This document shows, piece by piece, positions 232 to 10,893 of a DNA stretch of 15,942 nucleotides. The stretch lies in contig JAHJSF010000182.1 in assembly GCA_018830405.1 (NCBI GenBank), forward strand, positions 1 to 15,942, read 5' to 3'. The translations under genes were made by a program, and so were the position numbers. Below the pieces are notes generated by a model, which was given only the letters and a program-made list of their open reading frames with translations, was not told where the DNA came from and ran no database searches. Each line of letters starts with the position of its first letter. Position 1 is the stretch's first letter. The DNA comes from Nitrospinota bacterium (GTDB lineage Bacteria > Nitrospinota > Nitrospinia > UBA9942 > JAHJSF01).

Positions 232-1197
232 TTACTGAATTGATTTCACTATATCCCCCGCCCGAAAGGGACTAATGCTTGAGGTAATGTTTCCCTCCGA
301 CACATTTTCATTCTGGTGGTTTACCAATTCTATTTCACCGATCTTGGTCTGTCTGACGCCTAAGACATGGCCGGTAGCAGGGTCGATTAGTTGCCCTCCA
401 TTGCGATAGACTCCAAGTTTTGCCCCTGTTTTAAGTTTTGATCTTGTCCCCCCTCTGAAAATAAGGCTGTCTCCTTCGACTATAAGGACACTCCCTTGGA
501 AAGGGAGCTTGCTCAATTCTGTTATCATAGATTCGACCGCTTTGGCCATGGCATCCCTCAGGGCTCCGTCCTTCAGGCCGGCATCGGCACTCGACTTTGA
601 GCCGAATCCAAGGAGTCCGCCGGTCTTCTTTCTATATTCCCCTTCCCCCGATTTGGCAACCAAGGTTCTGCCTGTTGAGACATCAACCAGGGCGTAATCA
701 ACGCCCACCCTGATTATCTTAGTCTTCGACTGGGCTATAAGGATATCCGACCCTTCTTCCAGTTCCGAATAGGATGTTATTGCCCCCGATACCCTGTAGT
801 CTATCGCCTCAAGTACATTTTCTGTGTTTTTATTCCTCTTATTCAGATAGCCGTTGGCCTGCAGATCGGTTACCATGCTGTGCTGTGTTAAATCCTCATC
901 CGTAAGCATAATCGGCTCAAGTCCTGCATTCTTCAACATTGTCCTTAGTATATCGGTCGCGGCCTCTCCTACCCCCAAAACCCCTGAAGGGGTTTTATTG
1001 GCCAGCTCCAGTATGCCGATTGTATATTGAGGGCCATTATAGTTAATCCCGGCCTCACCCACCTTATCGGTCTGACCGGTGCGGGAGGTATCTTGTCTGA
1101 CTACTCCTTTTGTTTTGACCTGACAGCCGATCAGGGCAAGAAGGAGCAGAGACGATATCCCAAAAATATTGACCATTTTTAAAAAAGATCTGCGCAT
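232..1197 (-). CDS. CsgG-like outer-membrane lipoprotein with C-terminal FlgT_C-like extension
   Basis: This 321-residue protein has a signal peptide with lipobox L22-I23-G24-C25. It is followed by a CsgG/HfaB-type domain at about residues 55-235, visible as 'YTIGILELANKT', 'VDYALVDVSTGRTL' and the closing helix 'LKDGALRDAMAKAVESMI'. CsgG itself forms a nonameric outer-membrane secretion pore for curli, but many CsgG-family lipoproteins have no assigned export role. Residues 236-320 ('GVYRNGGQLIDPATGHVLG', 'KIGEIELV') resemble the small beta domain at the end of FlgT-like and other envelope lipoproteins. A good Shine-Dalgarno sequence (AAGGAGA) precedes ATG 1197. It is the last gene of the block, 18 nt after the DUF799 gene. 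The usual third partner, DUF4810, is absent. Family confident; function unknown. Confidence 0.75.
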   Translation of the reverse strand: MRRSFLKMVNIFGISSLLLLALIGCQVKTKGVVRQDTSRTGQTDKVGEAGINYNGPQYTIGILELANKTPSGVLGVGEAATDILRTMLKNAGLEPIMLTDEDLTQHSMVTDLQANGYLNKRNKNTENVLEAIDYRVSGAITSYSELEEGSDILIAQSKTKIIRVGVDYALVDVSTGRTLVAKSGEGEYRKKTGGLLGFGSKSSADAGLKDGALRDAMAKAVESMITELSKLPFQGSVLIVEGDSLIFRGGTRSKLKTGAKLGVYRNGGQLIDPATGHVLGVRQTKIGEIELVNHQNENVSEGNITSSISPFRAGDIVKSIQ

Positions 1198-1215
1198 ATT
1201 TTTCTCCTTTCCAGA

Positions 1216-2001
1216 TTATTTAGACCCCACAGGTCCGGTTAGTATTATCGGGTGGGTATATAAAATACGGTTTAAGGCGATTTCTGTTTCTATCCAGAGG
1301 TGTATCCTGGTCGCCTTGGTGATGATCTTTGTTCCAAATCCCCTAACCAACGATTCCTCCATACTCACATTTTCGTTCCCTATTATATACCAAGAATTTA
1401 GCCCCGGCATTTCTTTCATTGGATCGTTGGAAGCGGGGAGACTTTCTATCTTTTCTCCTTTTAAATCATTTATATTTGAAGCGATGGAGATGGCCACCCC
1501 GGCAGAGCCTGAAAAGAGTTCTTTTTTTACTCCGGCCCCTTTTCCCCAGATAACCTTACCGGTTTTAACATCAACAAGTTTCCAGCCCATTCTAACCTTC
1601 CTCAGGTTGTATACCCCCGTAACCTGATCTTCAAAGTTCAACAGGTATCCGTAAAAGAGGCCGTCAACTCCAAGCTTTTCTCCTATCTGTTGGGGGGAGA
1701 GGAGCCCCAGCTGGTCCCCAAGAGTGATACCTAATTGATCTCTCAGGATAGTATCTACTTCATTTATCGGTTTTATTATATAGCGGGTCCCTTCTAATTT
1801 TTTAGTAAAGGCCTCTCTGGTTACCTGCGGGCCTTCAACGTCATTGGTGTTGTTGACCATAGGGAGGACGGCTACCGTTCTTATACGGTTGTTAGGGGTT
1901 GGCCTTAAGCCCCGTGAGCCGGCACACCCTGCCAAGAGCCCAAGTATAGCCAAAGATACAAGTAAAAGAGGAGCAAACCTTTTTTCTCTAAGAGTCTTCA
2001 C
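1216..2001 (-). CDS. DUF799 (GNA1162-like) lipoprotein, GTG start
   Basis: This 261-residue lipoprotein has n-region KTLREKR, a hydrophobic core and lipobox LAGC with C26. The body matches the DUF799/GNA1162 family: 'VAVLPMVNNTNDVEG' at about 43-57, 'LGVDGLFYGYL' at about 110-120, and 'WKLVDVKTGKVIWGKGAG' at about 140-157. The family has a TolB-N-like alpha/beta fold and no settled role. It is usually encoded beside CsgG-family and DUF4810 lipoproteins. The only start that keeps the signal peptide is GTG at 2001, inside the last codons of the upstream Cache-HAMP gene (14-nt overlap, no clear Shine-Dalgarno), so translation is probably coupled. The C-terminal 100 residues look less typical of the family. 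Function inferred only as envelope-associated. Confidence 0.75.
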   Translation of the reverse strand: MKTLREKRFAPLLLVSLAILGLLAGCAGSRGLRPTPNNRIRTVAVLPMVNNTNDVEGPQVTREAFTKKLEGTRYIIKPINEVDTILRDQLGITLGDQLGLLSPQQIGEKLGVDGLFYGYLLNFEDQVTGVYNLRKVRMGWKLVDVKTGKVIWGKGAGVKKELFSGSAGVAISIASNINDLKGEKIESLPASNDPMKEMPGLNSWYIIGNENVSMEESLVRGFGTKIITKATRIHLWIETEIALNRILYTHPIILTGPVGSK

Positions 2002-3400
2002 TTGTTATTTTTTTATATTTATCCAGCTCTTTCTCCAATTCTTCTACCCTGTTTTTTATCTCTATCATCTTTATTTCGCGGTCGACGGTTAGTTTGGCAA
2101 AGCTTTTCAGTTCGTCCACCTTATCCCTCAACATCTTGTCCGAGGCCTCCAGCGCTCCCCTTTTTATCTTATTCTCCTCTTTTAAGACCTTTAAATCATG
2201 GACCATCCGGTTGAAGAATAGCCCCAGTCGGCCTATTTCGTCGTTGTCGTCAGCATATACAGTTACGTCGAGGTTGCCCCTCCCTACCTCATTCATGGCC
2301 TGGCTAAGTTTGACTATCGGCCCGGATACGGAATGGGATATATATCCGCCTATAAACAGGGATGCCATTAGACCGACAACCAACATTAGCAGGAGGAGCG
2401 TGCCGATAGGGCTTAGTATCCGATCCGTTTCGGTTTCCAGTATGAGGGTCCAGCCTATCCCTTGGTAGGATAGATAACCTTTCGATTCAACGAATAGGTA
2501 AAGCTCCTCCCCCTCCCCCTCTTTATCGCCCGGGGCAAGGATGTAGTTTCTTCCATCCTTGGCTTCTTTCCACTTTCTTATGGCCGATCTCAACCCCTGA
2601 CTTACTTCCTCAAATATTTTATATTCTCTTGAGGAGTATACTGCTTCCTCTCTTTTATTAATCAAGTTAACCTCTATCTCTCCCCCCTTGATCCCGGTCA
2701 AAGAGGCCGATCGTCTAATTGTCTCGCCTATTATAAATTCGGTCTCTTTTATATTCAGGGGCGCCTTGATAACCCCGGCAAACTCCCCCTTTTCGTTATC
2801 TATCCTGACGCATATTGCAATGGAATCAATGTTACTGCTATCGTCGTGGCTAAGATTGGATACATAAAGACCATCCCTTTTGGCCAGTTGCCACCACTCT
2901 TCATCATCCTGCCGATAGTCTGATGTCTGGCCGCTCTGAGCAATATTTGCCCCATAGCGGTTTGTTATAAATATCTCCCCAAAGATGGGGTAGCCATATT
3001 CCCCTTTATAGAACTCGACTATATCGCGGAGGCCGACAGATAGATTGTTGCTGGCTATCTTGTTTATAAAGGGGTTTGTTGTCCCTTTGGGGAGAGACCC
3101 CCACTCTGTATCTCTTTTATTTATATATTCCTCGATATTTTTTATCTTGGAGAAGGCCTCGTTGGAAAGGCGGAGCTCCTCCTGCACCCTTCCCTCCCGA
3201 GCATGAATAATTATTTCCTCTATTCTGCTATGGATAGCCATGTCGACCTTATCCATAAGGGAGACCCCTAAAAGGGTATAATTGTGGGTGAGTTCCTGCC
3301 GCAGATTTTTGCGGGCGGAGTTTAAGAGCAGTATCCCTACCAAGGATAGGAGGAGGATTACCGATAGAAAACCGAGGCTTAGCCTTTTATATATCTTCAT
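1988..3400 (-). CDS. Cache-HAMP membrane sensor with coiled-coil tail, no output domain
   Basis: This protein has 470 residues. TM1 is at about 7-27. A periplasmic dCache-like domain spans about 30-325, with 'FITNRYGANIAQSG' (144-157), the 'EEWWQLAKRDG' motif (167-177) and 'AICVRI...GEFAGVIKAPLNI' (195-217). TM2 is at about 333-355 and HAMP at about 355-405 ('PIVKLSQAMNEVGRGNLDV', then 'DEIGRLGLFFNRM'). A coiled coil then runs to the end, with the tail 'REIKMIEIKNRVEEL' at 441-455. In longer proteins a HAMP domain of this kind is followed by a kinase, MCP, cyclase or phosphatase; here the protein simply ends. Its ATG lies within the end of the upstream HAMP gene (14-nt overlap), and its own end overlaps the DUF799 gene by 14 nt. 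Cache domains bind small ligands such as amino or carboxylic acids. The ligand and partner are unknown. Confidence 0.8.
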   Translation of the reverse strand: MKIYKRLSLGFLSVILLLSLVGILLLNSARKNLRQELTHNYTLLGVSLMDKVDMAIHSRIEEIIIHAREGRVQEELRLSNEAFSKIKNIEEYINKRDTEWGSLPKGTTNPFINKIASNNLSVGLRDIVEFYKGEYGYPIFGEIFITNRYGANIAQSGQTSDYRQDDEEWWQLAKRDGLYVSNLSHDDSSNIDSIAICVRIDNEKGEFAGVIKAPLNIKETEFIIGETIRRSASLTGIKGGEIEVNLINKREEAVYSSREYKIFEEVSQGLRSAIRKWKEAKDGRNYILAPGDKEGEGEELYLFVESKGYLSYQGIGWTLILETETDRILSPIGTLLLLMLVVGLMASLFIGGYISHSVSGPIVKLSQAMNEVGRGNLDVTVYADDNDEIGRLGLFFNRMVHDLKVLKEENKIKRGALEASDKMLRDKVDELKSFAKLTVDREIKMIEIKNRVEELEKELDKYKKITSEDS

Positions 3401-4640
3401 CTCTTTCGAGTTTCTCCTTTAGCTGTTTGATCTCTTTTTTAAGTTCTATCATCTTCAGCTCTCTCCCTATAGCCAGATTGTTGAAACGTTCCATTTCGGC
3501 CATTTTATCGTTTAGGGTCTCGGTTAGTTCTTCGATGGTCTGCTCCAGCCCCTCTTTCAACTTTTTAATTTCTTGAAGCATGATATTAAACGATTCTGCC
3601 AGTTCTCCAACCTCATCCTTAGAATTGATATCTATCTTCACATTTAAATCACCACGCCCTACTTGGTTGGCTGCATCGCGCAGCTTTATGATGGGGTCTG
3701 TAATAGGGATAGATATAAAGTAACCAACCACAACGGATAACATTACAGACAGGAAGATAGCCGCCATTACAAGGGTGGTGTTAAATAGGGCCCTTCGTTC
3801 ATCCTCGGCAATCTTATCCATAGCCACTACCTGAATCTGGTCATCAAGCAGGTTGTCTGCCTCTTGCAAGATGGTCTCAAATGTGGCCATGTCCCGTCTC
3901 TGTTGTCTTTCAAACTGAATAAGTTCCCCGGCCAGTTTTTTGATTTCTTTGTAGTCTTTATCCACAATGTCCAGCCATTTCCTTTCCTCGGCTGACAGGG
4001 GAAGTCTTCTGTATCTTGCCTCCTCTGCTTCAAATTTTGTCTCCTCCTTCTTTATTCGGGAGATTAAATCGTTTTTCGGATCGTTGATATATTCCTCAAT
4101 GGAGAAAAAGATATGTCCTATATCTATTTCCATTTTTAGAGATATTTCGGTCTTCTCAGCCCTGTGTTGGGGGTCATTGAGGGGTGGGGAGCTGAGTTTG
4201 TTTTCAAGTATATTTTCTATCTCTCTTGCATTGAGTACTATTTTTTTGAGCCAAACATTTACCCTCTTTTTTGTTTCGATAATCTCTTCGCCAAGGATGC
4301 GCATACTATCCTGTTTACGAGCCAGTTCACCGATTAACTCCTCCTCCTCGTTGCTCCTTATCTTGGAGAGGTATATATCCATGAACCTTTTGAAGTCTTT
4401 TTGGGAGTCTTTAAAGCGGATAATTGTTTCTTCCTTCTCCTCTCGACTGTAATCGCTTACGGCATCGGCCATCTCATGTATATTTATTTCGAGTTCGAGA
4501 GAGGCTTGGACCTTGGGGTTTTCCCTTTCGACTATCTCAATTATGTCCCGATTGATTATGTTGATGCCGAAAATGCTCAGCCCCCCTATCAGGAGGGCTA
4601 TTAAGAGAAAGGCTGAGAGCAGTTTTATGACTATCTTCAT
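3387..4640 (-). CDS. HAMP membrane sensor with helical periplasmic domain and coiled-coil tail, no output domain
   Basis: This protein has 417 residues. TM1 is at about 7-27. The long, mostly helical, charged periplasmic region at about 30-285 resembles four-helix-bundle or helical-bimodular chemoreceptor sensors. TM2 is at about 288-310 and HAMP at about 310-361 ('PIIKLRDAANQVGRGDLNV', 'DEVGELAESFNIM'). A coiled coil follows and ends in 'RELKMIELKKEIKQL' (393-407). There is no kinase, MCP hairpin, GGDEF or PP2C output. From HAMP to the end it matches the next gene closely, while the sensor halves are unrelated, suggesting duplication of the cytoplasmic half with sensor swapping or two inputs into one partner. 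It is the first gene of the block, directly after the palindrome cluster downstream of trpG. The Shine-Dalgarno is weak (AAAAG). Confidence 0.75.
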   Translation of the reverse strand: MKIVIKLLSAFLLIALLIGGLSIFGINIINRDIIEIVERENPKVQASLELEINIHEMADAVSDYSREEKEETIIRFKDSQKDFKRFMDIYLSKIRSNEEEELIGELARKQDSMRILGEEIIETKKRVNVWLKKIVLNAREIENILENKLSSPPLNDPQHRAEKTEISLKMEIDIGHIFFSIEEYINDPKNDLISRIKKEETKFEAEEARYRRLPLSAEERKWLDIVDKDYKEIKKLAGELIQFERQQRRDMATFETILQEADNLLDDQIQVVAMDKIAEDERRALFNTTLVMAAIFLSVMLSVVVGYFISIPITDPIIKLRDAANQVGRGDLNVKIDINSKDEVGELAESFNIMLQEIKKLKEGLEQTIEELTETLNDKMAEMERFNNLAIGRELKMIELKKEIKQLKEKLERDEDI

Positions 4641-4683: not shown

Positions 4684-4790
4684 CCCCTTTTATTCCCCTT
4701 TTCTAAAGGGGGAGTATATTGGAGTTCCCCCATTTTTTAAAAGGGGAGTATCAAATTATTCCCCCTTAACAAAGGGGGATAGGGGGTTGT
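4684..4790. repeat. Cluster of C/G-rich palindromes between trpG and the HAMP block
   Basis: At least three imperfect palindromes of the form CCCC(C)TTT..AAAGGGG(G) follow each other. The rightmost one, CCCCCTTAACAAAGGGGG at 4761-4778, recurs exactly at 10917-10934 and is followed by ATAGGGGGTTGT, which recurs at 10970-10981. The cluster starts 12 nt after the trpG stop on the minus strand. Transcribed, it would form a string of hairpins and may end or attenuate the trp transcript, but there is no long U-run. Confidence 0.7.
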
Positions 4791-4802: not shown

Positions 4803-5372
4803 CTACAATTTTATCTTAAGAAAATTGTTTAGCAACTCTTTCCCGACGCCGGTCAGTATAGACTCAGGGTGGAACTGCACCCCTTCAAGGGGCATTGCCC
4901 TATGCCTTACCCCCATTATCACCCCATCCTCCGTTTCGGCGCTTATTTCAAAGGAGTCGGGGAGGGAATCCTTCTCTATGACCAGGGAGTGGTAACGGGT
5001 TGCCTCGAATGGGTTTGGGAGACCTTCATATATTGTCTTCCCATCGTGGTGTATAAGAGAGGTTTTGCCATGCAGAAGGAGCGGGGCGTGTATGATATTT
5101 CCCCCAAAGGCGTAGCCGATAGCCTGGTGTCCGAGGCAGACCCCGAGGATTGGAATCTTGCCGGCAAATTCTTTGATAACATCAACAGAAATACCCGCCT
5201 CTTTTGGTGTGCAAGGGCCGGGGGATATAACGATCCTATCCGGCCTTTTGGCGGCGATCTCTTCAATGGTTATCCGGTCGTTTCTGAATATCTGAACATC
5301 TTCCCCCAGCTCACCCAGATATTGAACCAGGTTGTAGGTAAAGGAATCATAGTTATCTATCATTAAGAGCAT
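4803..5372 (-). CDS. trpG: Anthranilate synthase component II, glutamine amidotransferase subunit
   Basis: This 189-residue class-I glutamine amidotransferase is the usual length for a stand-alone TrpG. It begins '[12 protein letters not shown]', has the oxyanion motif PGPC (51-54), nucleophile Cys79 in GVCLGHQ, and His168/Glu170 in FHPES, so the triad is complete. HGKTS at 101-105 and YHSL at 127-130 are typical. It hydrolyses glutamine and passes ammonia to TrpE to make anthranilate from chorismate. It begins 2 nt after the trpE stop, with a Shine-Dalgarno (GGAGGGGA) 8 nt before ATG 5372, so the pair is co-translated. TrpG and PabA cannot be separated by sequence alone, and one protein may serve both anthranilate and folate synthesis. 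The partner gene decides the call. Confidence 0.93.
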
Positions 5373-5374
5373 AA

Positions 5375-6853
5375 TTAAATCCCCTCCTCAGCTAGGGAGA
5401 TGGCCTGCAAGAGGGCCTTCCCCTTATTTATCGTTTCTTGATATTCTTTGTCCGGGTCTGAGTCGGCCACTATTCCCGCCCCGACCCCAAGGTAAGCCCT
5501 CTTCCCTTTGATAAGGAGGGTGCGGATGGTGATGGCCATATCCATATTGCCGTTAAAACCAAAATAGCCGACCGCACCTCCATATATGCCCCGTCTGGTC
5601 GGCTCTATCTCTTCAATAATCTCCATCGCCCTTATCTTGGGCGCGCCTGATAGTGTCCCGGCCGGGAAGGTGGCCTTAATGACATCGTATGAGTCGAGCC
5701 CCGGCCTCAGTTTCCCCCTTATGTTGGAGACTATGTGCATGACGTGGGAGTAGCGTTCTATGGTCATAAGTTCGTTTACCTCTATGCTCCCTATCTCCGA
5801 GACGCGGCCGAGGTCGTTTCTCCCCAAGTCGACCAACATGATATGTTCGGCCCTCTCTTTCGGGTCGTTAAGGAGTTCCTCTTCCAAGGCCTTATCTTCC
5901 GCTTCGTTTTTCCCCCTTGGTCTTGTGCCGGCGATTGGCCTGAGTTCGACCTGTCCGTTTTCCGACCTGACCAGAACCTCGGGGGAGGAGCCGATTATTT
6001 CTATGTCGTCTAATTTCAGACAATACATGTAAGGGGAGGGGTTAATCATCCTCAGGGCCCGATATATGTTGAAGGAAGCGGTGGTGAAATCGGTTTCAAT
6101 CCTCTGGGAAAGAACCACCTGAAAGATATCCCCCTCGGTTATATACTCCTTACAGCGGGCAACCCCTTCTTTGAATTTGGCCTCCGATATGTTCGAGCTG
6201 AATTTATTCCCTTTTTTGGTCCCTTCCCCCTTATCTTGGGGGATATTGAGGGGCTTGTTAAGTTTCTCTATGATGGCCTCTATATCGGCTATCCCTTGCC
6301 GATAGGCCTCGGCCGGCTCTTTCCCCTCAGTGGCTATGTTTGATACCACCTTTATTTTTTGAGTCAGGTTATCGAATATTACCAGGGTGTAGGAGAGCAT
6401 AAAGATTGAATCGGGGATGTTGAGGTCATCTTCTGTTTCTTCGGGGAGGTCTTCAAAGAAGCGGACCATGTCGTAACCGATATATCCGACCGCCCCTCCG
6501 CAAAACCTCGGCAGTCCCTCAACCTCGGCCGGTTTGTATTTCCCGATAATCTCTTTAAGAGAGGCGAGGGGGTCTTTCTTCGATTCGATTATTTCACTTT
6601 GACCGTTTCGGGTAATCTCTATCCTTTTCCCCTTGCTCTTGAACACGGCTTGGGGGGAACTCCCGATTATACAGTAGCGCCCCCATTTTTCTCCCCCCTC
6701 CATACTCTCCAGGAGGTAGGAGTAGGGACCGTCATTAAGTTTCAGGTAGGCGGTGACAGGGGTTTCAAGGTCGGCCGAGATCTCCCTGTAAATGGGGACA
6801 AGGTTGCTCTCTTGGCATTTTTCTTTGAATTGCTCTAAAGAAGGGGTATACAT
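5375..6853 (-). CDS. trpE: Anthranilate synthase component I
   Basis: It encodes 492 residues from ATG 6853. An in-frame TTG at 6859 is less likely: the AGGA box is 8 nt before the ATG but only 2 nt before the TTG. The protein converts chorismate plus ammonia (from TrpG) to anthranilate and pyruvate. The feedback-site motif LLES is at 47-50. PIAGTRPRG is at 306-314; Ala here, not the Lys of PIKGT in PabB enzymes, marks an anthranilate rather than an aminodeoxychorismate synthase. His337 in [23 protein letters not shown] at 399-406, IYGG and the metal-binding EYQET at 470-474 are all present. No trpD, C, F, B or A lies nearby, and no run of Trp codons lies upstream, so a classical leader-peptide attenuator is not visible. 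LLES suggests the enzyme is inhibited by tryptophan. Confidence 0.95.
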
Positions 6854-6910
6854 TTTCAATATCCTGCTTTAAATGGTTTTGGCTAAAGTAAGAAATGTCT
6901 TTGCCTTTTT

Positions 6911-7135: not shown

Positions 7136-8404
7136 TCACTTCTTATAAGGGGTTCCATTGATAACTATCATGTTTTTCCCCGACTCCTTGGCCTTATAGA
7201 GAGATTTGTCCGCAGCCTCAAGAAATGCCTTGGCGTTGTCGGTTTCAGGGGTAATATCCGCCAAGCCAAATGTGGCGGTGACCCTAAAAGTTTCCCCGCT
7301 TTCGGTGCGGAATTCCTTGTTCCGCATATCTTCCATAATTCTCTCTAGGCTTATTACAGCCTGTTCCGACCCGGTGTGGGGGAAGAACATGGAGAACTCA
7401 TCTCCCCCAAATCTTCCCGATATATCATGCTCTCGGAGGTTTTCTATTATTGATTCGGAGAAGTAGAGGAGGACTTCATCTCCCATGCTGTGCCCGTAGA
7501 GATCATTTATATCTTTAAAGTTATCCAGGTCGGCGATACATAGAGACAACTTTGTCTGGTACCTTAGGGCTGTTTGAAAGGTGGAGTTAAGCTGATCTAC
7601 GAAGCACCTTCTATTGTAAAGGGGGGTGAGGGTGTCATGGATTGCCTGGAACCTCAATTTCGCCTCAAGTTGTTTTCCCCTTATGGCGTACCTTATGGAA
7701 CGGTCGAGGAGGGAGGCGCTAACCTCCCCCTTCTCTATATAATCAGCCGCCCCGGCGGCCATGGCCTCCATATCAACAAAGTAGTTCCCCAGGCCGGTTA
7801 GTATGACGCAGGGGAGTTCGGGGTTATAGTCACCAATCTCGCGGAGCAGTTCAACGCCTGATCTTTCTCCGAGTTTATAGTCTATAAAACACACATCGTA
7901 GTTTCCCTCTTTTATTTTTTCGAGCGCCTCGTTGTATGATGGGGTCCAGGTTAGATCATAATGGCTGTTTGGAACCTCGGATAAGAGGTCTTTCATGAAG
8001 ACATATTCGTCTTCATCATCGTCTACCAAGAGTATATTTATACTGTCGCTGTCTTCGTATGAAGCGATTGCCTCCTCAACGGACTTGAATATTCGGATAG
8101 ATTTGAATAAATCGGTTTTGGCCGCGATTTTTTTAATAAGGTCATTATCGGCGACAATGCGAACCCCTTCTTCCTTTTTGGGGAACCTGGTTAGTATAAA
8201 AAAAATGGCGCTGGCCAAAAAATGGTCCTTTTGGCCTACCCTTGTCAGGTCGATGACTACCCTTTCACTTCCAGCATCCCCTTCGTTTAGTCTTAGGCAT
8301 CGGTCTATAGTAGATTTTAGGGCGAACAGGCTCTCGCCGTGGGGAGAGGCATTGGGTGATATAACATTAATACCTCTCTCTTTTCTATGTTCAATAGGTG
8401 TCAT
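7136..8404 (-). CDS. STAS-like/receiver/GGDEF diguanylate cyclase
   Basis: This protein has 422 residues and three domains. Residues 10-116 have the beta-alpha pattern of a STAS domain ('VVIDLTRVGQKDHFLASAIFFIL'), but the usual D-S-S/T-G phosphorylation motif is replaced. Residues 122-243 are a CheY-like receiver with acidic cluster D128-D130, phosphoacceptor D175, T203 and K225. Residues 253-420 are a GGDEF domain with 'HDTLTPLYNRR', an intact GGDEF signature at 333-337, and an RxxD inhibitory site (R324-D327) at the correct 5-residue spacing. It therefore probably makes c-di-GMP under phosphorylation control with product inhibition. It starts 17 nt after the receiver gene and ends the kinase operon. 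The STAS call is structural and less certain than the other two domains. No membrane segment is seen. Confidence 0.88.
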   Translation of the reverse strand: MTPIEHRKERGINVISPNASPHGESLFALKSTIDRCLRLNEGDAGSERVVIDLTRVGQKDHFLASAIFFILTRFPKKEEGVRIVADNDLIKKIAAKTDLFKSIRIFKSVEEAIASYEDSDSINILLVDDDEDEYVFMKDLLSEVPNSHYDLTWTPSYNEALEKIKEGNYDVCFIDYKLGERSGVELLREIGDYNPELPCVILTGLGNYFVDMEAMAAGAADYIEKGEVSASLLDRSIRYAIRGKQLEAKLRFQAIHDTLTPLYNRRCFVDQLNSTFQTALRYQTKLSLCIADLDNFKDINDLYGHSMGDEVLLYFSESIIENLREHDISGRFGGDEFSMFFPHTGSEQAVISLERIMEDMRNKEFRTESGETFRVTATFGLADITPETDNAKAFLEAADKSLYKAKESGKNMIVINGTPYKK

Positions 8405-8421: not shown

Positions 8422-8871
8422 CTATTGTCTGTCTCCGTTGGGGGGGAGCTTTACTATTTCAACCCAATATTTTTTCAATGTCCTCAATACCGCCACTAAG
8501 CCGTCAAATGTTACCGGCTTGGTGATAAAACCGCTAATCCCACGTTGGTATGTCTTATTTATATCCTCCTCAGCGCTTGAGGTTGTTAAAACAACAATAG
8601 GAATACTTTTTAAGGCGCTGTCCGCCTTAATCTCTATCAGCGCCTCCCGCCCATCCTTTTTGGGCATATTAAGGTCGAGAAGGATTAGATCCGGCCTCGG
8701 GGCATCCTTATACTCTCCACGCTTATGGAGATAATCGAGCAACTCTTCCCCATTATGGACAAAACTAAGATTATTAATAAGGAGGAAGTCTTGCCAAGCC
8801 TCTTTCAGGAGCATACAATCCTCCAGGTCATCATCGGCCACTAAAATTTGAATCGCTTCTTCGCCCCCCAT
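8422..8871 (-). CDS. Single-domain response regulator, Rcp1-like
   Basis: The protein has 149 residues and consists only of a receiver domain, with D13-D15, phosphoacceptor D66 in LLDLNMP, T96 in VVLTTSS and K118 in ITKP. 'HNGEELLDYLHKRGEY' after beta 2 and 'LTTSSAEEDINKTY' are typical of the Rcp1 subfamily, which pairs with kinases of the 'ASHDLQEPLRKV' type such as cyanobacterial phytochrome Cph1. It lies 51 nt downstream of just such a kinase and 17 nt upstream of the REC-GGDEF gene. With no output domain it probably shuttles phosphate or competes with the cyclase receiver for it. Confidence 0.9.
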   Translation of the reverse strand: MGGEEAIQILVADDDLEDCMLLKEAWQDFLLINNLSFVHNGEELLDYLHKRGEYKDAPRPDLILLDLNMPKKDGREALIEIKADSALKSIPIVVLTTSSAEEDINKTYQRGISGFITKPVTFDGLVAVLRTLKKYWVEIVKLPPNGDRQ

Positions 8872-8922: not shown

Positions 8923-10893
8923 TTATCTCATATTTTTGTTATATATGGGTAGCCTAAGAATAAAGGCCGCCCCCTCCCCAAGCGTGCTTTCCGCCCTTAT
9001 TTTACCATTGCAGTTGTCAACTATCTTTTTGCAAATCGACAGGCCGATGCCGGTTCCCTGGTATTCCCCTTGACCGTGCAGCCTTTGAAATATTGTAAAT
9101 ATTTTTTCTTTATATTTTTCATCAAAGCCTATTCCATTGTCCTTAACGGTTATTTGGTAAAATCCTTGGCCGGCTCTTTCTCCATATATTTTTATATGCG
9201 GCGGTTCATCTTGTTTGCGGAATTTTAGGCCGTTGTCTATAAGGTTCTGGAATAATTGATAGATGTGTAGATTGTTTGACAGCACCTCTGCCCCCTCGTC
9301 TAGGTCGATATCTATAATGTCTCCCCTCTCTTCCGAACGGAGGTTGGCCGCTACCTCCTTTATTGTCTTATATAGGTTGACAGCTTCCTTTGTTTCTTGA
9401 CTTGACGACACCCTAGAGTAGCTGAGAAGGTCCTTGATTAGTTGCTGCATTCTTCCTACTGCTTTATTCATCCTGGCCATATAATCGAGCCCCTTCTCAT
9501 CCAAGGCGTGGCTATATTTTTCCCTTAGTCGGTCGGAAAATGCAACTACTTTTCTGAGCGGCTCCTGAAGGTCGTGGGAGGCCATATAAGCGAATTCTTC
9601 AAGCTGCTTATTTGAGTAGAGGAGGCGATTGGCGGTGTCTGCTTGTCTCTTCTCCGCCTTTTCGCGGTTAGATATCTCGGCCACGAGACGCTTCTGCCGC
9701 TCTTCAAGGTCTTCCATTATATTGAGCATGGCTGTCCTGTTTCTCTCCAAGTAGTTTTTCTCCTCCTCGGTGCCGGCAAGTGTATCTATCAGGTCTCTGC
9801 TTCTGGCCGCTATCTTTTCTTCAATCCCCCTGTTGATATCTTTGGCCCGGGTAATTAGGGCCTTAATCGAATCGGCCAGCTCTGCTATTTCGGCCACTTC
9901 GTGGTGGGTGGTATCTATATTAAAATCCATATTTGAGAGACCAACCCTTTCGACCTCTTTCTTAAGATTGTCTATAGGGTCAAGAACCAGGTCAGATATA
10001 TATATGGAGACCAGGTAGCTGATAGAAACGAAGAAGAGGGAAAAGAGAATGAGTATCAGCTTCAGGGACCTTATAATTGCCAACGAGCCCTCTTCCTTAA
10101 GTTCTCCCTTTACGCTCCAATTAGTACCTTCTATAGGGCTGCACGTCCCCACAATATTAAACCCGCCATTCTTATACCTGTATATTTTGCCGAAGGGGGA
10201 GTTGGTCCCGTTATTTTTGGAGCACCTTTTTATGGCCGATTCATCCTCTGAGTTCCTGCTGAGGAGTCTGCTGATTCCATTCCCCTCTTTATCTACAACG
10301 GAGAGAGTTACCCAGCCTAATTCTTCCCCGATTGAAGATAATATTTTATTGATAGTGTCGATCCTTATCTCCGCAACTATCCTCCCCTCCTCTCCATTAG
10401 GCCTATTTATTGGGTGACTAAAGGTGATTGTATCGATTGGGTAGAGGGTCTCCCTATGCCCGATCTGAAAATTACTGTCAGGTTTAAGTGTTGGCGATAA
10501 ACTTTTATCCAGGCCTATAAGGATTTCATCCGTTGAGACCGTTACTTGACCATTTTTGTTCACCAAGGATAAGGAGGCGATGTCAGGATAGTAGCGCATG
10601 ATATCCTTCATCTTCCCCAGGTACAGACCGTGACCCCCGTTGCCCCCACGTGTACCATTGGTTGGATATTCGATAAGGGGGTAATCTGTCGCGATAAGCC
10701 TTATAATGTTTTTGTACTCATCCAAGAGGGCCTCTATGTTTTTGGCGCCTCTTGTGGTCTGGCTTTGCAGGTCGGATATGAAGCGGTTTGTTACATATTT
10801 TCGGGCGAAGGGGTATAACGAGACGACCAACATTAGGGACAGAAGAATAGACGCTGTCAGCCAATATAGTCTTATCCGTGTCCCTATCTTCAT
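8923..10893 (-). CDS. Membrane sensor histidine kinase, Cache-like/HAMP/HisKA/HATPase
   Basis: This protein has 656 residues. TM1 is at about 9-30. A periplasmic Cache-like sensor spans about 35-265, with 'IASLSLVNKNGQVTVST' and 'VTLSVVDKEGNGISRLL' as typical strands. TM2 is at about 275-300, HAMP at about 300-352, a long coiled coil at about 355-430, and HisKA with phosphoacceptor His440 in 'MASHDLQEPLRKV'. The ATPase domain shows the N-box 'QNLIDNGLKF' (549-558), DNGIGF (585-590) and GTGIGLSI (613-620). All catalytic motifs are intact. It is the first gene of a three-gene unit with an Rcp1-like receiver and a REC-GGDEF protein, making both likely targets. The sensed ligand is unknown. The Shine-Dalgarno before ATG 10893 is weak. 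Confidence 0.92.
   Translation of the reverse strand: MKIGTRIRLYWLTASILLSLMLVVSLYPFARKYVTNRFISDLQSQTTRGAKNIEALLDEYKNIIRLIATDYPLIEYPTNGTRGGNGGHGLYLGKMKDIMRYYPDIASLSLVNKNGQVTVSTDEILIGLDKSLSPTLKPDSNFQIGHRETLYPIDTITFSHPINRPNGEEGRIVAEIRIDTINKILSSIGEELGWVTLSVVDKEGNGISRLLSRNSEDESAIKRCSKNNGTNSPFGKIYRYKNGGFNIVGTCSPIEGTNWSVKGELKEEGSLAIIRSLKLILILFSLFFVSISYLVSIYISDLVLDPIDNLKKEVERVGLSNMDFNIDTTHHEVAEIAELADSIKALITRAKDINRGIEEKIAARSRDLIDTLAGTEEEKNYLERNRTAMLNIMEDLEERQKRLVAEISNREKAEKRQADTANRLLYSNKQLEEFAYMASHDLQEPLRKVVAFSDRLREKYSHALDEKGLDYMARMNKAVGRMQQLIKDLLSYSRVSSSQETKEAVNLYKTIKEVAANLRSEERGDIIDIDLDEGAEVLSNNLHIYQLFQNLIDNGLKFRKQDEPPHIKIYGERAGQGFYQITVKDNGIGFDEKYKEKIFTIFQRLHGQGEYQGTGIGLSICKKIVDNCNGKIRAESTLGEGAAFILRLPIYNKNMR

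Follow-up and report, generated by a model that had tools for sequence, protein, structure and literature searches.

Several described systems resemble parts of the locus studied here. The S-helix, a coiled-coil signalling module, is nearly always flanked by a domain on each side and carries an ERT signature (Anantharaman, Balaji and Aravind 2006, PMC1592074). Contacts between a lipoprotein and an inner-membrane sensor are known in YfiB/R/N and QseG/QseE (PMC2837407, PMC3375315, PMC6075780), and in Neisseria the genes for GNA1162 and a CsgG-like protein lie two genes apart (PMC5282872). We analyzed a stretch of 15,942 nucleotides from a Nitrospinota bacterium (the window; GenBank contig JAHJSF010000182.1), which is one complete contig (C176) of a metagenome-assembled genome (MAG) of 1.42 Mb that is 87% complete and whose nearest relatives in our search were Nitrospinota bacteria. 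At one end of the window, four minus-strand genes encode two membrane sensors, named here HAMP1 and HAMP2, a DUF799 lipoprotein and a CsgG-like lipoprotein. We found that both sensors terminate in the same conserved helix, which is confined to the ends of kinase-less proteins and is linked, gene by gene, to enzymes carrying a particular N-terminal motif. Our best explanation, held with moderate confidence, is that HAMP1 and HAMP2 are trans-acting sensor subunits for a histidine kinase encoded in the same window, co-transcribed with a pair of unrelated, FlgT-like lipoproteins.

The four open reading frames (ORFs), all on the minus strand, are HAMP1 (3387..4640; 417 amino acids), HAMP2 (1988..3400; 470 amino acids), DUF799 (1216..2001; 261 amino acids, GTG start) and the CsgG-like gene (232..1197; 321 amino acids), whose end lies 231 nucleotides from the contig end. 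The HAMP1/HAMP2 and HAMP2/DUF799 junctions overlap by 14 nucleotides each, so that the GTG start lies inside the neighbouring gene, and a gap of 18 nucleotides separates DUF799 from the CsgG-like gene; ORF calls and Pfam searches confirmed this anatomy and the domains given in the first-pass annotation. The equal length of the two overlaps is unremarkable by itself. A ribosome-binding site was visible before the HAMP2 and CsgG-like genes and none was visible before the GTG-started DUF799 gene, which is consistent with translational coupling at the HAMP2/DUF799 junction.

Both sensors follow the plan of a transmembrane (TM) segment, a periplasmic domain, a second TM segment and a HAMP domain, with two predicted TM segments each and Pfam HAMP matches of 1.8e-15 and 9.5e-11. 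HAMP1 (3387..4640, minus strand) comprises TM1 (residues 3-21), a four-helix-bundle-like periplasmic sensor of about 270 residues, TM2 (291-309), HAMP (310-359), a coiled coil and the terminal helix. HAMP2 (1988..3400, minus strand) comprises TM1, a periplasmic double-Cache sensor of about 310 residues, TM2 (332-350), HAMP (354-403), a coiled coil and the terminal helix; an AlphaFold2 model of its periplasmic part matches dCache domains, and full kinases have sensors homologous to this part. The genome encodes the closest paralogues of HAMP1 on contigs C31 and C22; these are full kinases, and HAMP1 is 29-37% identical to their sensor and HAMP parts. Pfam detected no output domain (HisKA-HATPase, MCP signal or GGDEF) in HAMP1 or HAMP2 beyond the HAMP and coiled coil.

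The ends of the two sensors have one C-terminal helix of about 38 residues in common, hereafter the tail. It spans residues 375-413 of 417 in HAMP1 (3402..3518, minus strand; NDKMAEMERFNNLAIGRELKMIELKKEIKQLKEKLER) and residues 422-461 of 470 in HAMP2 (2018..2137, minus strand; RDKVDELKSFAKLTVDREIKMIEIKNRVEELEKELDK), and a search started from the HAMP1 tail recovered that of HAMP2 with an E-value of 1.8e-6. We ran a tail profile (A5) on 77 genomes of the class and on 23 genomes having the CsgG cluster described below, and obtained matches in 9 and 15 of them, respectively. Across all loci examined, the tail was found in 50 distinct genes; it lay within 15 residues of the C-terminus in all 50, and none of these ORFs contained a kinase ATPase (HATPase) domain. 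HAMP1 and HAMP2 share both properties of this group: each has its A5 match at most 15 residues before the C-terminus, and each lacks a catalytic domain. The alignment showed invariant R17, E18 and K25 and a VGRE(L/I) signature, and no Pfam family covered the module in the tail proteins that were scanned. The remaining domains of these proteins are REC, GAF, PAS, Cache and HAMP, in arrangements such as REC-GAF-PAS, Cache-PAS, Cache-HAMP-PAS and PAS only. Because the conserved tail was seen solely at the ends of kinase-less sensors, HAMP1 and HAMP2 probably act via protein contacts, and their shared tail hints that a separate enzyme receives their signal. The earlier proposal that these sensors work by contacts rather than enzymatic output is thus supported, whereas its extension to one system with the lipoproteins is not, as described below.

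We then asked what follows the tail genes, which frequently occur in tandem and in many cases immediately precede the gene of an output enzyme (HD-GYP, GGDEF-EAL or kinase). The following genes often encode PAS-GAF-HD-GYP proteins or kinases and, in one case, a GGDEF-EAL protein, and many of these enzymes share an N-terminal segment, R.AML(Y/N)(M/I/L)LED(L/F)N, hereafter the LED motif (AML(Y/N)xLED). For the 43 tail genes with flanking sequence, the next gene encoded an LED enzyme in 15 cases, another tail protein in 9 and a kinase in 5. Conversely, 15 of the 16 LED genes with flanks had a tail gene directly upstream, and for the 16th (L250) there was a tail match at the contig end. An LED profile (A6) run on the 77 class genomes matched six genes, distributed over 4 genomes that all belong to the 9 with tails; five of the six genes directly follow a tail gene and the sixth lies near a contig start. 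The chance of such a coincidence under random placement is 126/1,353,275, or about 1e-4, a figure that flatters the result since the profile includes sequences from two of the four genomes. We tentatively propose, with somewhat less confidence than the explanation given at the outset, that tail and LED motif form a matched docking pair, representing an uncharted, cross-phylum split of sensor and effector into trans-acting subunits, in which several, often tandem, sensors could feed a single enzyme. In the window genome, a sensor pair of this kind would also be wired to an outer-membrane lipoprotein pair. A literal-string search of part of the literature found no description of the tail/LED pairing.

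The candidate output partner of HAMP1 and HAMP2 in the window is a membrane histidine kinase (8923..10893, minus strand) with the architecture dCache-HAMP-coiled coil-HisKA-HATPase. Downstream of it lie a single-domain response regulator (8422..8871, minus strand) and a STAS-REC-GGDEF protein, a putative diguanylate cyclase (7136..8404, minus strand); this cluster is on the same strand as the four-gene block, 2.5-6.3 kb upstream of it. In the LED profile search (1482 ORFs), the kinase segment AMLNIMEDLEERQ scored an E-value of 0.015, ranking first after all genuine LED proteins and being the only further LED-like match; the LED-like motif occupies residues 379-403 (9685..9759, minus strand; KNYLERNRTAMLNIMEDLEERQKRL). 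When the tails were ranked by similarity, the three that precede LED kinases took ranks 1, 2 and 5 of 42 relative to the HAMP1 tail and ranks 1, 5 and 8 of 42 relative to the HAMP2 tail. The LED-like match and these ranks make the kinase, together with the neighbouring receiver and STAS-REC-GGDEF proteins, the likeliest output of HAMP1 and HAMP2. Two functional modules would then be joined in a single operon in this genome. In the first, the helical-bundle HAMP1 and the double-Cache HAMP2 would serve as effector-less inner-membrane sensors whose terminal helix is the docking or transmission end. A conformational signal would pass in trans to an enzyme with a complementary LED segment, here most likely the kinase at 8923-10893, whose own targets would be the adjacent receiver and REC-GGDEF proteins. 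The tail would dock physically with the LED segment.

Several observations weigh against this explanation. The LED match of the window kinase is weak, with an E-value of 0.015 locally and no significance genome-wide, and the segment lies between HAMP and HisKA, while it is N-terminal in the other LED enzymes. The kinase is not adjacent to the sensors, as trpG and trpE (4803-6859) separate its cluster from HAMP1. Tail genes typically have an LED enzyme or kinase directly downstream; here the next gene is DUF799, and the LED-like kinase is encoded 4.3 kb upstream, also on the minus strand. Beyond the window, 15 of the 43 flanked tail genes are in groups with no LED enzyme or kinase following, and the LED profile was built mainly from tail-adjacent genes, two of them from class genomes, which makes the class test only partly independent. 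Finally, the overlapping genes suggest co-expression of the four proteins, so that a functional link to the lipoproteins may exist.

An alternative, which we consider unlikely but which survives better than the others, is that HAMP1 and HAMP2 primarily target each other or a different kinase of the genome, such as those on C31 and C22, through mixed dimers of their HAMP and coiled-coil regions, the tail being a stabilising coiled coil only. It draws on the likeness of the two tails and on the identity that HAMP1 shows to the C31 and C22 kinases across their sensor and HAMP parts. However, a generic coiled coil would not be expected solely at the ends of kinase-less proteins (50 of 50) with invariant R17, E18 and K25, and mixed dimers leave the LED linkage unexplained.

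The next alternative concerns the lipoproteins, which we characterized separately. The DUF799 protein (1216..2001, minus strand) carries the lipobox LLAGC and belongs to the GNA1162/DUF799 family, with a Pfam PF05643 match of 4.4e-12 (46.4 bits against a gathering threshold of 25.9) and a PDB profile match of 2.7e-10 to the solved GNA1162 structure (4hrv); no paper on DUF799 function was found within the literature searched. The CsgG-superfamily lipoprotein (232..1197, minus strand) has a CsgG-family core (Pfam 6.6e-6, 26.0 bits against a gathering threshold of 20.8; structural Z-score about 15) followed by a C-terminal FlgT_C/TsaP-like beta domain, and is FlgT-like overall. Its structure model (predicted local distance difference test score 76) aligned with FlgT (8z5n, 3w1e) over 233-235 residues including the C-terminal domain (8z5n, Z 16.2 over 235), compared with about 200 residues for CsgG. 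The fold match covers the middle and C-terminal domains of FlgT, and no Pfam match to FlgT_N was obtained in this protein. The C-terminal part also matches 6ve2 by profile, which we take to be the PilQ-TsaP complex. The model has long strands at 134-195, but a Gly/Lys-rich region at the second hairpin. The protein's likeness to the FlgT ring subunit is no weaker than its likeness to the CsgG channel, so that the suggested gating through CsgG found no support, and the model-based fold match argues for a FlgT-like ring protein, although the protein may still form a pore.

The 43 other loci retrieved with a CsgG-like profile share about 47-60% identity and come from Nitrospinota, Nitrospirota, Candidatus Manganitrophus and deltaproteobacterial and gammaproteobacterial MAGs. 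In each of the 40 that include upstream sequence, DUF799 immediately preceded CsgG (with small ORFs intervening in L138), and a FlgT-like gene preceded DUF799 within 1.4 kb in 34 of the 36 loci with room. Many loci continue downstream with an SLH/TPR lipoprotein and an LPP20-like protein, often followed by MlaE, MlaF and MlaD. In the second module of the favoured explanation, the DUF799 and CsgG-like proteins would be FlgT-like outer-membrane lipoproteins, a pair out of this widely conserved cluster, probably building a periplasmic or outer-membrane ring or scaffold and not a curli-type channel. In the window genome, no SLH/TPR lipoprotein was found (a TPR match only), but its loss is unproven, with the genome 87% complete and the contig stopping after CsgG.

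The second alternative, in line with the first-pass annotation, holds that all four proteins form one trans-envelope device, with the lipoproteins acting as sensors or gates in the outer membrane and touching HAMP1 and HAMP2 at their periplasmic domains, as outer-membrane lipoproteins do for YfiN and QseE. The genes are indeed overlapping and apparently coupled, and such contacts have the precedents cited above. Moreover, 5 of the 43 CsgG loci (L129, L135, L139, L149 and L154) encode small TM-HAMP proteins of another family upstream of FlgT, and such proteins also occur beside DUF799-like genes in cytochrome/PPIase clusters; these, however, have neither the tail nor large sensor domains, and the periplasmic part of HAMP2 is a double Cache of the small-molecule type. 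The HAMP-HAMP-DUF799-CsgG order, expected to recur, was present only in this genome and absent from the 43 other CsgG-orthologue loci. A HAMP gene directly upstream of DUF799 was seen in no locus besides the window, including five Nitrospinota relatives of the same taxonomic order, and the 43 loci, covered up to 8 kb on either side, contained no tail-bearing sensor gene. A joint conserved operon was likewise not found via CsgG orthologues in the 43 named loci and 77 class genomes. Within the set searched, this is the outcome that the first-pass annotation named as refuting its proposal. Since the gene order is unique to this genome among the loci searched and the conserved partners of the lipoproteins are others (FlgT-like, SLH/TPR, LPP20-like and MlaEFD), conservation does not support a joint four-protein machine, and we regard this device as improbable. 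As a set, the four genes appear to be a local single-genome arrangement rather than a known joint machine; the joint operon of sensors and lipoproteins may be a co-expression arrangement limited to this lineage.

Last, the possibility that HAMP1 and HAMP2 are degenerating, functionless kinases that lost their catalytic domains, raised by the close full-kinase relatives of both, was rejected as highly improbable, because the frames are intact and overlapping and a conserved C-terminal module common to both follows HAMP and is absent from the kinase relatives.

Output-less sensors annotated as 'HAMP' or 'PAS domain-containing' proteins are common in bacterial genomes and their partners are usually unknown; the tail and LED motifs would let a partner be predicted from sequence. 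The DUF799 and CsgG-like genes, for their part, emerge as members of a conserved FlgT-like/LPP20-like/SLH-TPR cluster that occurs in Nitrospinota, Nitrospirota and deltaproteobacterial lineages and in many cases has the MlaEFD lipid-transport genes behind it.

Other features of these loci were also recorded. In many deltaproteobacterial MAGs (L113-L154, for example L139:5786-14542), the order is FlgT-like, DUF799, CsgG/FlgT-like, SLH-TPR lipoprotein, LPP20-like, a protein of about 250 amino acids and MlaE-MlaF-MlaD; MAGs of Nitrospirota and Gammaproteobacteria have just the short three-gene form (FlgT-like, DUF799, CsgG). Tandem genes for proteins of about 320 and 430 amino acids, both matching DUF799, occur class-wide, often near a GHMP-kinase-like gene (L037-L043, L047-L049). 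The family of small HAMP-only proteins found upstream of FlgT (two TM segments, no tail, 184-229 amino acids) also adjoins DUF799-like lipoproteins at L045:3907-4461, L046:6513-7172 and L087:6341-6907, in clusters with PPIases (peptidyl-prolyl isomerases), CXXCH proteins or PilM/N. On contig C22 of the window genome (L092:15-2983), the gene of a HAMP-PAS kinase closely paralogous to HAMP1 is immediately preceded by one for a FlgT-like protein; that the latter is the FlgT gene of the cluster, relocated, was given little weight, as the match (E-value 3.7e-12, 25% identity) is much more remote than the FlgT of the cluster itself and hits no Pfam family. Between trpG and HAMP1 (4690-4779) are three imperfect 24-nucleotide palindromic repeats of the CCCC..AAAGGGG type, and a promoter scan upstream of HAMP1 gave matches only at about chance level. 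Just downstream of the CsgG-like gene, at the contig end (87-130), are two 18-nucleotide direct repeats (GGGACATTTCTAA...AGT), which we would guess mark an insertion-sequence end where the assembly broke.

In comparison with known systems, the CsgG-like protein finds its best fold match over most of its length in FlgT, the H-ring/T-ring scaffold of polar flagella (3w1e, 8z5n), with which it shares a CsgG/TolB-N-like middle and a C-terminal beta domain. It differs from FlgT in being a lipoprotein without the FlgT N-terminal domain, and the window contains no flagellar genes, for which the genome was not searched; a ring function of the lipoprotein pair is suggested by the fold. It shares with the CsgG curli secretion channel (4uv2, 4uv3) the lipoprotein nature, the alpha/beta core and a Pfam CsgG match of 26 bits, but has an extra C-terminal domain, the Gly/Lys-rich region in place of the second membrane hairpin and different neighbours. 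The curli genes csgA/B/E/F were absent from the Pfam-scanned neighbours, which are only part of the neighbours; the contig ends after CsgG. The window DUF799 protein is a clear relative of Neisseria GNA1162 (4hrv; PF05643) and adjoins a CsgG-like gene, but it has a C-terminal extension of about 90 amino acids and other neighbours. As in YfiBNR and QseE/QseG, an outer-membrane lipoprotein is encoded together with a two-TM inner-membrane sensor; the sensors of those systems own a GGDEF or kinase output, whereas the window sensors have none and lipoprotein contact here is hypothetical. The tail recalls the S-helix, a coiled-coil signalling module of about 40 residues that likewise occurs with HAMP, PAS, GAF and HD-GYP domains. 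We rejected its identification as an S-helix, as it matches neither the ERT signature nor the between-domain position; the tail is exclusively C-terminal and is marked by its own VGRE(L/I) signature.

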